Below are positions 24,011 through 26,666 of a DNA stretch of 64,000 bases, one piece after another. The position numbers were made by a program, and so were the translations under genes. This stretch comes from Corynebacterium striatum ATCC 6940 (GTDB lineage: Bacteria; Actinomycetota; Actinomycetes; Mycobacteriales; Mycobacteriaceae), in the NCBI RefSeq assembly GCF_000159135.1, contig NZ_GG667519.1:248240-312239 (forward strand), written 5' to 3'. The first letter of the stretch is position 1. Each line of letters starts with the position of its first letter. The notes under the pieces were generated by a model. That model saw nothing but the letters and a program-made list of their open reading frames with translations, did no database searches and was not told the DNA's origin.

Positions 24011-24335
24011 ATGTAGTGCTCTTTTCAGTATGTACAGGTAGGGCCCGTGGCGAGTGCCTAAGGATGAATGCTTCCGAGCGCTCAAGACGGGCGATGGACA
24101 GGCGCTGATATCAACTGCACTACTAGTCGGAGGTGATGGCTTCTCGGTTCCCGCGGATTGAAAAACTTTTTAAATAGTTGACGTTTTCGGTGCCGCAGGA
24201 TGGGGATCTGCTCGATATCAGGCTTAAGAAGCAAGAAACAGTCAAGAAAAGGTTATCGCAGCTCAACGGGTGAAAACGGTATCGAAAGGCGCCGTTTTGA
24301 GCCAGTTTGCGGCTTATGAAGCAAGAAAGCGGTTC
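24011..24335. other. 325-bp gap: PepSY promoter area and repeat unit U1
   Basis: The part nearest the PepSY gene holds its likely promoter (minus-strand TACATACT about 25 bp before the start). The part nearest the AlbA_2 gene is filled by repeat unit U1 (24228-24328). No open frame or RNA gene was seen. Confidence 0.5.
24228..24328 (-). repeat. phased repeat unit U1
   Basis: GAAGCAAGAAA at 24228, GTCAAGAAAA 13 bp later (24241), and a second GAAGCAAGAAA 90 bp after the first (24318). U1 and U2 also share the sequence between boxes (for example CGCAGCTCAACGGGT and AGTTTGCGGCT or GGTTTGCGGCT). U1 lies just downstream of the AlbA_2 gene. Confidence 0.7.
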
Positions 24336-25814
24336 CTAATTGCTCCAGAATGGAACATAACGCAATGACCGCGGGCCTGCGCTGGGATCGTAAGGGTGGA
24401 TGAGTCCTTCCTCGACGGTGGCAGCAAGCAGGCGAGTGGCCTGAGCCGCTTGCGAGTCTTTCAGCCCGAAGCGCTGACGGATTGAGGAATTGTTAACGGG
24501 GAGGTTCTCAAGGAAGCGAAGGCAAGCATGTTGATAGACGGCTTGGGTCTTTTCTTCCATGGTCATCAGTGCAAAGGGGCGGTAGGCGCTGAGGGAGACG
24601 GTGGTACTTCCGTTGGCGCGGACGAGAGCCGGCGGGAAGTGCTCGGTTTCGAGGGAGGACACAATTTTGTCCCAGCCACTTCCGCGTTGTTCGACAAGAT
24701 GCGCCAAACGTAAAGCTTCACCGAGATGAGTATTGCGTGTGGTGGACGCCGAGTCAATGAACCGTTGGGGGTCGATAAGCGGGGTCCCTGGGTTGGTTAC
24801 TTCGACCCGATCGCTGAAAATCTCCACGGTCAAGAACCGGCCGCGCTGCTCGAGATCCTGGTGCATGAGCGCATTTGCTAGGACCTCGCGGAAGGCCACC
24901 GTTGGTAGCAGTGGAGTTACTACGCGCTTACCACTGGGATCAATATGTTCGCCGCCTGGGCGAATGGTGTTGAAGAGCGTGACTATGTGGGTGAAGGAAG
25001 ACGCATAACCTTCGGTGAATTCCCATTCTCGTTCCACCGCCGTGCGTGAAGGGCCGTTGAAGTATAGGACGCGGGGAGCGCGCCCGCGCAGCTCTGGAAA
25101 GTCCTGAAGGGAACGTGCGTACATGAGCGCAGACCACGCCGGAATATGCCAGCCTTGCTCATGTGAGTAGGAGATGGCTTTGGCGTTCCTTAACGTGTCG
25201 ATAAGGGCGGTGCCTGTCGTATGCGGGAGTTCCGGCCGATTGAGGAAGAAAGCCTCAGGATCAAGGAGGTCGGTAATCGATTCGGGCTCAAGGCCCTCGG
25301 CCACTACTGTGTTCTCGAATTCGAACTGGTTGAGTTTTGTCCAGAGCTGACGTTCCTCGTTAGGAAAGTCCATGAGGATTTTCATGTAGCTGCCCTTGCG
25401 GAAATACCGTTTCCCTTCGAAAGAATACGGGGCGGACAATGCGGCGGGGATGCGCAGAAGCACAACGAGGTGTCCATCAACGGTTACCTCGTCGAATGTC
25501 ACATCAGGTGCTGGACTAATGACGCGGTTGAGCCAGGGGAGTAGGTCTTCGTTGCCTTTCGCCTTTGCCTGTTGCCAGTCAAACGACGTCCCAACGACAG
25601 CGTGGTCATCGTTTACTCCCCATATGAGGTATCCCGCTGGTTCATCGTGCAGGCGTGCCGAATTTCCCAAGGCGCAGGCATACTTTGCAATCTCCGCGCC
25701 GGAGGACAGCTTGTTTACCTTGAACTCGAGCCACGGTAGCTCAGCCGGAAGCGCTATAAACCGTTTCACGCGGGCAACAAGTTGTTCCTCAGGCGCAGAA
25801 TTGATGGGAGTCAT
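24336..25814 (-). CDS. AlbA_2 (Schlafen-type) ATP-binding regulator
   Basis: A 492-residue protein. Residues about 15-140 are an AlbA_2/Schlafen domain (ELPWLEFKVNKLSSGAEIAK, LGNSARLHDEPAGYLIWGVN). Residues about 305-420 are a GHKL-like ATPase domain of HATPase_c_4 type (TVAFREVLANALMHQDLEQR, VTNPGTPLIDPQRFID). The C-terminus looks like a winged helix (NNSSIRQRFGLKDSQAAQAT). Such proteins are treated as putative transcriptional regulators, and some lie in defence or mobile regions. The ATG at 25814 was chosen because upstream in-frame ATGs fall inside the promoter. The gene is flanked by repeat units U1 and U2, and its -35 box overlaps U2, so it may bind these repeats. Confidence 0.8.
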   Translation of the reverse strand: MTPINSAPEEQLVARVKRFIALPAELPWLEFKVNKLSSGAEIAKYACALGNSARLHDEPAGYLIWGVNDDHAVVGTSFDWQQAKAKGNEDLLPWLNRVISPAPDVTFDEVTVDGHLVVLLRIPAALSAPYSFEGKRYFRKGSYMKILMDFPNEERQLWTKLNQFEFENTVVAEGLEPESITDLLDPEAFFLNRPELPHTTGTALIDTLRNAKAISYSHEQGWHIPAWSALMYARSLQDFPELRGRAPRVLYFNGPSRTAVEREWEFTEGYASSFTHIVTLFNTIRPGGEHIDPSGKRVVTPLLPTVAFREVLANALMHQDLEQRGRFLTVEIFSDRVEVTNPGTPLIDPQRFIDSASTTRNTHLGEALRLAHLVEQRGSGWDKIVSSLETEHFPPALVRANGSTTVSLSAYRPFALMTMEEKTQAVYQHACLRFLENLPVNNSSIRQRFGLKDSQAAQATRLLAATVEEGLIHPYDPSAGPRSLRYVPFWSN

Positions 25815-25821
25815 GAGTAAA

Positions 25822-25850
25822 AGTATGCGCGAGAAGCAAGAAACAGTCAA
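25822..25850 (-). promoter_or_regulatory. promoter of AlbA_2 gene overlapping repeat unit U2
   Basis: On the minus strand TTGACT (25850-25845), a 17-bp spacer, and CATACT (25827-25822) make a plausible sigma-A promoter 8 bp before the start codon. The spacer is mostly the TTTCTTGCTTC box of U2, and the -35 lies in the TTTTCTTGAC box. A protein bound to these boxes would control the promoter. Confidence 0.55.
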
Positions 25851-25933
25851 GAAAAAGTCTTCGCAGCTCAACGGGTAAAAATAGCGCCCGAATCTGTGGC
25901 TTCGGGCCGGTTTGCGGCTAATGAAGCAAGAAA
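25833..25933 (-). repeat. phased repeat unit U2
   Basis: GAAGCAAGAAA at 25833, GTCAAGAAAA 13 bp later (25846), and GAAGCAAGAAA 90 bp after the first (25923), the same spacing as U1. Sequence between boxes is similar to U1. Its right-hand box abuts the terminator at 25931-25974. Confidence 0.7.
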
Positions 25934-25974
25934 AGACCGCCTCGAACTCCAGGGAGGAGACGAAGCGGTCTTTT
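25931..25974. terminator. bidirectional-looking terminator downstream of the icd remnant
   Basis: AAAAGACCGC (25931-25940) and GCGGTCTTTT (25965-25974) are perfect reverse complements with a 24-nt loop that itself contains CTCC/GGAG. It lies 20 bp beyond the stop of the minus-strand icd remnant and probably came with it. It differs from the terminator of the intact icd. Confidence 0.7.
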
Positions 25975-25994
25975 GTTAAGCGCCTAGCGCCGAA

Positions 25995-26506
25995 TTACTT
26001 CTTCAGGCCATCAATGATTTCGTTGAAGGCAGCAACCGGGCGCATGGTCTGGTTGAGCTTCTCCTCGTTCGGGGCGTAGTAGCCGCCGAGGTCGACGGGG
26101 GAGCCCTGGACGTCGAGAAGCGCCTGCTCAATCTCGCCTGCCTTGGCCTCGAGGGCCTCAGCGACCGGCTTGAAGGCCTCGAGGCCAGCTCGGCGTCGTC
26201 AGTCTGTGCAGCCAGCTCCTTGGCCCAGTTGAGGGTCAGGAAGAAGTGGGAGCCGCGATTGTCGTTCTCGCCCACCTTGCGGGACGGGGACTTGCCCTCA
26301 TCCAGCAGGGTCTCGGTGGCCTTGTCCAGGGCAGCGGCCAGGACACCTGCCTTGGCGTTGCCGTTGGTGTTGTGCTCGTGGCGGAAGGACTCAGCCAGAG
26401 CCAAGAACTCACCGATGGGAATCCCAGCGCAGGTGGTTCTCCTTCTGCACCTGCTGGACGTGCTTCGGGGCGGAGTCGCCGGCACCGGTCTCGAACAGGC
26501 CGCCGC
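25995..26506 (-). pseudogene. duplicated, decayed 3' fragment of icd
   Basis: This stretch repeats the last ~510 bp of the intact icd at 31123-31631 with scattered substitutions (about 90% identical by eye). It includes the same stop and the peptides [24 protein letters not shown] and [16 protein letters not shown]. Relative to icd it has a net +2 indel near 26180-26190 and +1 near 26417, so the frame is broken between them. It has no 5' part. Similarity stops abruptly at about 26506, next to repeat unit U3. The level of divergence suggests an icd allele from another strain or species, not a fresh copy. Confidence 0.85.
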
Positions 26507-26566
26507 GCTGCGCAACGCGGGGTAGGTTTTCGGGGGCGCGAGGCGGATCCCCTGGAACCCGCCCAA

Positions 26567-26666
26567 GAAGCAAGAAAGAGGCAAGAAAACGTTTCTCCGG
26601 TTAGGAGAGTTTTTGGAGTGGTTTTCGGGCTGTTTTGGTACCCTTTCCCGGTTACGAAGCAAGAAA
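26567..26666 (-). repeat. phased repeat unit U3
   Basis: GAAGCAAGAAA at 26567, GGCAAGAAAA 13 bp later (26580), and GAAGCAAGAAA 89 bp after the first (26656). The spacing of the three boxes matches U1 and U2, but the sequence between them is unrelated (T/G-rich). It lies about 60 bp beyond the broken end of the icd remnant. Confidence 0.65.

Follow-up and report, generated by a model that had tools for sequence, protein, structure and literature searches.

What purpose a set of short, regularly spaced boxes serves around a single gene is the question raised by a 64,000-nt stretch of the 2.83-Mb genome of Corynebacterium striatum ATCC 6940 (contig NZ_GG667519.1; hereafter the window). The gene, here called slfn, encodes a protein of the Schlafen AlbA_2 family and is flanked by copies of a unit, U, of about 100 bp with the design GAAGCAAGAAA, CAAGAAAA and, at +89/90, GAAGCAAGAAA again (boxes 1, 2 and 3). 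A first-pass annotation of this DNA had taken the boxes for either an operator system or the ends of an element. According to our analysis these are not alternatives, as U is operator-like at the slfn promoter and also forms a direct-repeat boundary of the gene. We estimate a probability of roughly 0.6 that U is the promoter-operator of slfn, an AlbA_2/GHKL-type ATPase regulator or effector gene, and that its duplication has given rise to a direct-repeat cassette that is gained and lost by recombination.

A three-box unit linked to slfn

The window contains three units on the forward strand. U1 (24228–24328; boxes at 24228–24238, 24243–24250 and 24318–24328) lies 7 bp past the slfn stop codon, U2 (25833–25933; boxes at 25833–25843, 25848–25855 and 25923–25933) overlaps the slfn promoter, and U3 (26567–26666; boxes at 26567–26577, 26582–26589 and 26656–26666) belongs to a subfamily with 89-bp spacing. 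Exactly six exact copies of GAAGCAAGAAA are found in the window, with 0.04 expected from dinucleotide shuffles of the window; the whole genome has seven, the seventh being a lone box without partner boxes. The six copies, their positions and their pairwise spacings of 90, 90 and 89 bp had been annotated correctly, only the offset of the second box needs correction: CAAGAAAA begins at +15 instead of +13, with the CAAGAAA cores of boxes 1 and 2 being 11 bp apart. U1, U2 and U3 can be aligned to one another over their full length. The view that U3 shares nothing beyond the boxes goes too far, as U3 is homologous also outside the boxes to the U of other species, with 85% identity over 174 bp, flank included, to that of locus L061.

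In the window genome, the two-box pattern (up to 2 mismatches) matched U1–U3 and gave no further sites that would indicate a wider regulon. We then scanned a collection of genomes from 84,980 species and a viral collection for boxes 1 and 2 only, and checked box 3 afterwards. It was found at +89/90 with at most two mismatches in 20 of 21 Corynebacterium occurrences, as opposed to none of the 42 others (31 genomes, 11 viral contigs). The lone exception in the genus, C. stercoris (L091), has a U cut by an inserted sequence. Together, shuffles and box-3 position counts rule out a chance origin; the three-box spacing is beyond chance, and the pattern is real and conserved. Its spacing is kept at homologous loci, which was one half of what the first-pass annotation had made its proposal depend on. 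Carriers include C. oculi, C. riegelii, C. aurimucosum, C. minutissimum, C. macginleyi, C. haemomassiliense and C. stercoris, and the scans of both collections found no three-box element outside Corynebacterium. A phage or plasmid element was rejected, as box 3 was missing from all viral pattern matches (0/11). No relative of the window protein was confirmed in viral contigs, and the matches to it in 6 phage records and 87 plasmid records were all below 60% identity.

Within the genus, a sequence model of U (R1) matched 36 of 242 genomes. It was built from copies with near-perfect boxes, and strongly decayed copies may escape it. The matches in G149 and G122 were weak, lacked the three-box structure and were dropped as chance hits. 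Of the matches to the two-box pattern, four without third box, each with 2 mismatches, were removed before alignment (G026, G105, G089 and the second match of G006), and a reversed control pattern gave one match each in 6 of 151 genomes. U most likely acts as a DNA element, because not a single consensus base pair was found in an alignment of 35 copies. An RNA element was dismissed on this ground and for want of a relevant Rfam match, the scan of the window having given two sub-threshold matches, neither of them on U1–U3.

Homologues with at least 56% identity to the window protein occur in 19 of the 242 genus genomes, 14 of them intact and 5 broken. U stands beside the gene in all 19 genomes and is found in 17 of the 223 others, including the two chance matches; among close homologues, the proposed link between U and the AlbA_2 gene is hence complete. 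Direct repeats of 102–124 bp flank all 13 intact genes tested, with the fourteenth, in G038, omitted because it is split over two contigs. They are weakest in G052, the most distant of these homologues (70% identity over 113 bp, and a further match of 48 bp). In contrast, flanking direct repeats of U size were found around none of five homologues with 36–40% identity, one from Corynebacterium and four from other genera in a 348-genome sample of the order, although one has a 42-bp match. Among the homologues tested, the slfn repeat cassette was found only in Corynebacterium.

A predicted promoter built from the repeat

The slfn gene lies on the reverse strand (24336–25814; ATG at 25814, stop codon at 24336–24338) and encodes 492 amino acids. 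On the gene strand, U2 terminates in TTTTCTTGACTGTTTCTTGCTTC. The predicted −35 hexamer TTGACT (25845–25850, reverse strand) overlaps box 2 of U2, and the predicted −10 hexamer CATACT (25822–25827, reverse strand) lies outside U2. The 17-bp spacer between them (25828–25844) covers box 1, and 7 nt separate the −10 from the ATG. We judged promoters by consensus match only, in the 12 genomes with standard boxes; G137 and G052, whose boxes differ, were omitted from box and promoter counts, and the solo U of L064 from the promoter count for being too near the contig end. A −10 with at least 4/6 matches at a spacing of 16–18 bp accompanied all 12 U2 copies, none of 12 U1 copies and one of 16 solo copies, so that the overlap of U2 with the slfn promoter noted in the window extends to all 12 genomes. 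A box-2 −35 (TTGACT, TTGCCT or TTGCTC) stands 17 bp before the −10 (CATACT, GATACT or TATGAT), which is outside U in 10 of the 12; for G063 and G185, box 1 offers a better −35, TTGCTT. From these predictions, the gene-proximal U would give the −35 with box 2 and the 17-bp spacer with box 1, the −10 belonging to the slfn side. Where the ATG sits 6–7 bp beyond the −10, as in the window, the slfn transcript probably is leaderless; a leader is present in G204 and G063.

At its other end, slfn is followed by a second, direct copy of U that by our annotation ends 1–19 bp from the stop codon (1–7 bp in 11 of 12 genomes, 19 bp in G204). Could U also serve neighbouring genes? A role as promoter of the PepSY or bacteriocin genes was rejected, as a good −10 is lacking at both U1 and U3 and the bacteriocin genes do not lie in the direction in which U3 points.

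Constraint on the boxes and divergence with the protein

Within 14 pairs of U flanking slfn, 12 with intact and 2 with broken genes and, coming from related species, not independent, differences between the two copies affect 6 of 420 box positions but 188 of 935 spacer positions. For the gene, dN/dS (ratio of nonsynonymous to synonymous rates) could be computed in nine pairs and is 0.045–0.090 in all of them except G064/G207, which has very few changes and a value of 0.353. Two diverged homologues come with diverged boxes. In G137 (67% protein identity) box 2 is altered in both copies and box 3 stands at +110. In G052 (58%) the gene-strand sequence of boxes 1 and 2 is TTTATTTGACGCTTTATTGC, save for a single base in one of three copies, and the two cores are still 11 bp apart; box 3 is at +99 in all three copies. 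Of the three U-like copies of G052 (L074), two stand in tandem before slfn (7601–7698 and 7837–7934) and one after it (9508–9605). Compared with the usual 89/90 bp, the box-3 distances of 99 and 110 bp are longer by about one and two helical turns, which on these two divergent cases only is what boxes on the same face would need.

We hence propose that Slfn, with its winged helix and/or its AlbA_2 domain, may bind the boxes cooperatively on one face of the DNA, two of them being separated by one turn and the third lying an integral number of turns beyond. With the −35 and the spacer under boxes 1 and 2, binding at these boxes would keep the polymerase out, and Slfn bound at U might repress its own promoter. 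The idea of an AlbA_2-linked operator would thus appear well supported, albeit indirectly.

Several observations weigh against this proposal. The support for binding of the boxes by the protein is indirect, consisting of linkage, box constraint and partial co-divergence, and the choice of repression over activation is guessed from where the boxes lie. Co-divergence is partial because box 3 of G052 differs between copies, with GAAGCAAGAAA after the gene and GAATCAATAAA before it. Perfect boxes, allowing GGAGCAAGAAA for box 3, were found in 11 of 12 U2 copies, 7 of 12 U1 copies and 14 of 29 other copies, the latter including three pieces of insertion-cut units in G231. The better conservation of U2 is modest (p 0.013, uncorrected for relatedness), and the boxes of U1 are no better conserved than those of the remaining copies (p 0.73). 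Moreover, of the 15 genomes with a genuine U and no close slfn, 10 keep a solo U with perfect boxes, which makes another binder or a recent loss of the gene possible. Autorepression leaves the U copy past the stop codon unexplained, and in G009 U bounds a bacteriocin segment without slfn.

Gain, loss and exchange of the cassette

Between PepSY and icd, the window genome carries U–slfn–U, as do G084, G064, G207 and G204. At the same locus there is a solo U in G056, G195, G208, G210, G012, G006 and G189, a single box in G130, and no U in G104, G216, G205 and G100. The states expected of an attachment-type site are therefore seen, with the same flanking genes around a solo U (G056, G195, G208, G210) and around U–slfn–U (window genome, G084, G064, G207). 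A second locus, between rplA and a lipase gene, has U–slfn–U in G063, U copies around a broken slfn in G128 and around a remnant in G191, a solo U in G062 and no U in G082. On an icd tree of 30 rows, with remnants counted as presence, the presence of slfn changes at least 8 times; 11 of the 27 inner branches of this tree are unresolved, and the window icd seems recombinant.

Exchange between species is indicated by tracts of high identity. In the pair G064/G207, slfn has a synonymous divergence (dS) of 0.023, and per 100-bp bin PepSY is 69–95% and icd 84–98% identical; the tract begins some 160 bp upstream of U1 and ends shortly beyond U2, with U1 itself differing. In the pair G059/G025, slfn is 92–100% and ppc 83–95% identical per bin, and high identity starts about 37 bp before U1 and runs on into the bacteriocin genes. 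These tracts argue that the slfn block moves between species and that its moved segments end near U. The flanking repeats would let slfn be lost, leaving a solo U, or gained by recombination at U, and the U–slfn–U block as a whole could also move between species. A Pfam search found no recombinase gene inside the unit of about 1.6 kb, slfn being its sole gene, and homologous recombination between the repeats of about 106 bp is sufficient for the observed states. For the first U–slfn–U, we consider both a chance duplication and a dedicated mechanism. In G113, a solo U (L072, 7923–8042) carries a short remnant of the slfn stop end on its right side; here slfn was lost by a route other than clean U–U recombination.

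Two conventional kinds of mobile element were rejected. The flanking repeats are direct, not inverted, and enclose slfn and no transposase, which excludes a DNA transposon (insertion sequence, IS, or miniature inverted-repeat element). Neither is there an integrase between the repeats, as an integrase-borne integrative element would have.

A possible but rather unlikely alternative is that U is the attachment site of a site-specific recombinase acting in trans, with slfn and the bacteriocin segment as cargo and the boxes binding the recombinase. Full, solo and empty states, units complete on both sides with three rigidly spaced boxes, and the varying location of slfn, which relative to the bacteriocin segment lies towards icd in G038 and G187 but at the opposite end in G059, G025 and G163, would all suit such an enzyme. 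Yet of 24 neighbourhood proteins scanned with Pfam, from 270 open reading frames (ORFs) collected, none but IS21 and Mutator-type transposases gave a recombinase-type match. Boxes 1–2 of G052 and box 2 of G137, moreover, diverge along with Slfn, RecA recombination between the repeats suffices, and the promoter geometry is left unexplained.

Less probable still, U might be a regulatory element of the host, or a dispersed intergenic repeat, to which an unrelated host protein binds and which slfn and the bacteriocin segment use for homology only. The perfect solo units persisting without a close slfn could be read in this way, as could the finding that, at most of the loci examined, U immediately follows icd, ppc or rplA. 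A host element would, however, hardly be lacking from the 206 of 242 genus genomes without a match to the U model and present in all 19 with a close slfn. Furthermore, 15 of 16 solo U have no −10, and some copies are decayed, split by insertions or collapsed: G012 has an 11-bp deletion, G184 has lost box 3, G231 contains inserted sequence, and in G130 the entire U has collapsed to one box between the same flanks. In G231 the copies (L191, L192) are split or cut by the insert, and one junction carries GAAAAGTAGCCC-like DNA.

The Slfn protein

The slfn product belongs to the Schlafen AlbA_2/HATPase_c_4 family. PF04326 (AlbA_2) matches residues 28–145 (E 7.1e-17, 62.5 bits against a cut-off of 25.3) and PF13749 (HATPase_c_4) residues 326–404 (E 8.5e-15, 55 bits against a cut-off of 26), numbered on an ORF translation with one extra residue before the initial methionine; a winged helix is predicted at the C-terminus. 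The AlphaFold2 model (mean pLDDT, predicted local distance difference test, 87.4; pTM, predicted template modelling score, 0.77) has its best fold match in 3lmm, DIP2311 of C. diphtheriae (E 6.5e-20). With both domains above the Pfam cut-offs, Slfn thus resembles the DIP2311-type prokaryotic Schlafen AlbA_2/HATPase_c_4 proteins. Weaker matches are 2kyy (E 2.0e-3), the AlbA_2 domain of SAMD9 solved with DNA (7ksp, E 5.6e-3) and MarR-type winged helices (E 0.04 and above). Among 14 aligned rows, residues E25 and E30 of a putative acidic triad are invariant and D69 is at least 90% conserved; their spacing of 5 and 39 resembles that of E205/E210/D248 in rat SLFN13, the triad of a site known for RNA cleavage according to PMC5862951. 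In two other papers, the AlbA2 region of SAMD9 is described as combining DNA binding with a Schlafen-like site (PMC11221667), and Schlafen AlbA_2 is listed as a DNA-binding domain among Argonaute proteins and their partners (PMC6299218). Distant homologues occur in three Streptococcus satellite phages and one Burkholderia phage, and PADLOC gave a weak match to PDC-S50 (residues 13–134, E 2.4e-4). Phage homologues and PADLOC match are compatible with a defence-type cargo without proving it; Slfn probably is a defence-type nucleic-acid effector or regulator.

It seems very improbable that Slfn itself mobilises the cassette, recognising the three boxes, controlling its own expression and directing its own insertion and removal without belonging to a known recombinase family: the one-gene unit with one U 1–19 bp from the stop codon and the other abutting the promoter, the conserved acidic residues of AlbA_2, the several genomic contexts and the partial co-divergence of boxes and protein would fit, but Pfam gave Slfn no domain typical of known recombinases, RNA cleavage is the activity known for the Schlafen-type site, ordinary homologous recombination explains the states, and a target-site duplication distinct from U was not seen.

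Comparison with known systems

As a proposed promoter-operator, U resembles autoregulated promoters with direct-repeat operators: the slfn boxes cover −35 and spacer, and the distant third box could allow looping. It differs in that the whole promoter-operator is repeated after the stop codon as cassette boundary. Full and solo states and a defence or bacteriocin cargo between repeats recall solo scars of long terminal repeats, pdif modules and Xer-using elements. The slfn unit, however, contains neither a reverse transcriptase nor a recombinase, and U, with about 100 bp and three direct boxes, is unlike a dif-like site and also part of a promoter. Integron gene cassettes, too, consist of one gene at a repeated site with a contribution to promoter function; in contrast, the slfn unit has no integrase, U has no consensus fold, and the two flanking repeats share one design and one orientation.

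Schlafen-type proteins are common among prokaryotes. In titles and opening parts of abstracts of the open-access literature, the matches listed contained nothing on the U repeat or a Corynebacterium slfn cassette. Among the matches listed in this limited search there was also no specific DNA target for any prokaryotic Schlafen-type protein. U is thus a concrete candidate DNA site for such a protein, as constraint and, in part, divergence track the protein. What is new here is that slfn takes the form of a cassette, that this cassette is gained and lost, and that its promoter is rebuilt from a repeat. A single gene would be packaged between copies of its own promoter-operator; since any U beside the −10 of slfn would supply a −35, recombination would move the gene and restore its promoter. 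If true, regulation and mobility of a probable defence gene would be joined at a corynebacterial insertion hotspot.

U3, the bacteriocin segment and the icd region

U3 lies just 3′ of a ppc fragment, between a ppc/icd fusion scar and a lactococcin-972-type segment. The scar consists of a frame-disrupted 3′ remnant of icd (25998–26506, reverse strand), fused via a short shared sequence to the 3′ end of the PEP (phosphoenolpyruvate) carboxylase gene ppc (26498–26525, forward strand), which forms the left flank of U3. The bacteriocin segment (27085–30748, forward strand), delimited by Pfam and gene-order comparison, comprises a Lactococcin_972 gene assigned by Pfam (27085–27378) and genes for a membrane protein (27382–29370) and an ABC (ATP-binding cassette) ATPase (29337–29981), followed by an ORF without Pfam match (29981–30748). 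ABC ATPase and membrane protein also gave matches to TIGR03608 and TIGR01654 below the curated cut-offs. In G009, the order is ppc–U–bacteriocin–U–icd, with homologous transporter genes between the two copies of U. As the window segment resembles this gene order, U3 most likely came with the bacteriocin segment, in DNA from a G009-like relative, and is not a separate pattern. G209 has slfn without bacteriocin segment. In G187, slfn (L187, 6692–12266) is interrupted by IS21-type genes, which in turn are interrupted by a Mutator-type transposase; this is the same locus as L086 of C. haemomassiliense.

The icd/ppc region of the window appears to be a horizontal segment with a recombinant icd. The product of the full-length icd, which follows the bacteriocin segment (31126–33294, reverse strand), is 89.5% identical to the G056 protein, to which nine sister-species loci are 97–99% identical. 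At three further loci (L053, L197 and L262, all intergenic between PepSY and icd), about 22 bp of the icd 3′ end recur on the far side of inserted DNA, one such insert being that of about 1.3 kb in G205. The icd 3′ end hence looks like a repeated insertion point.

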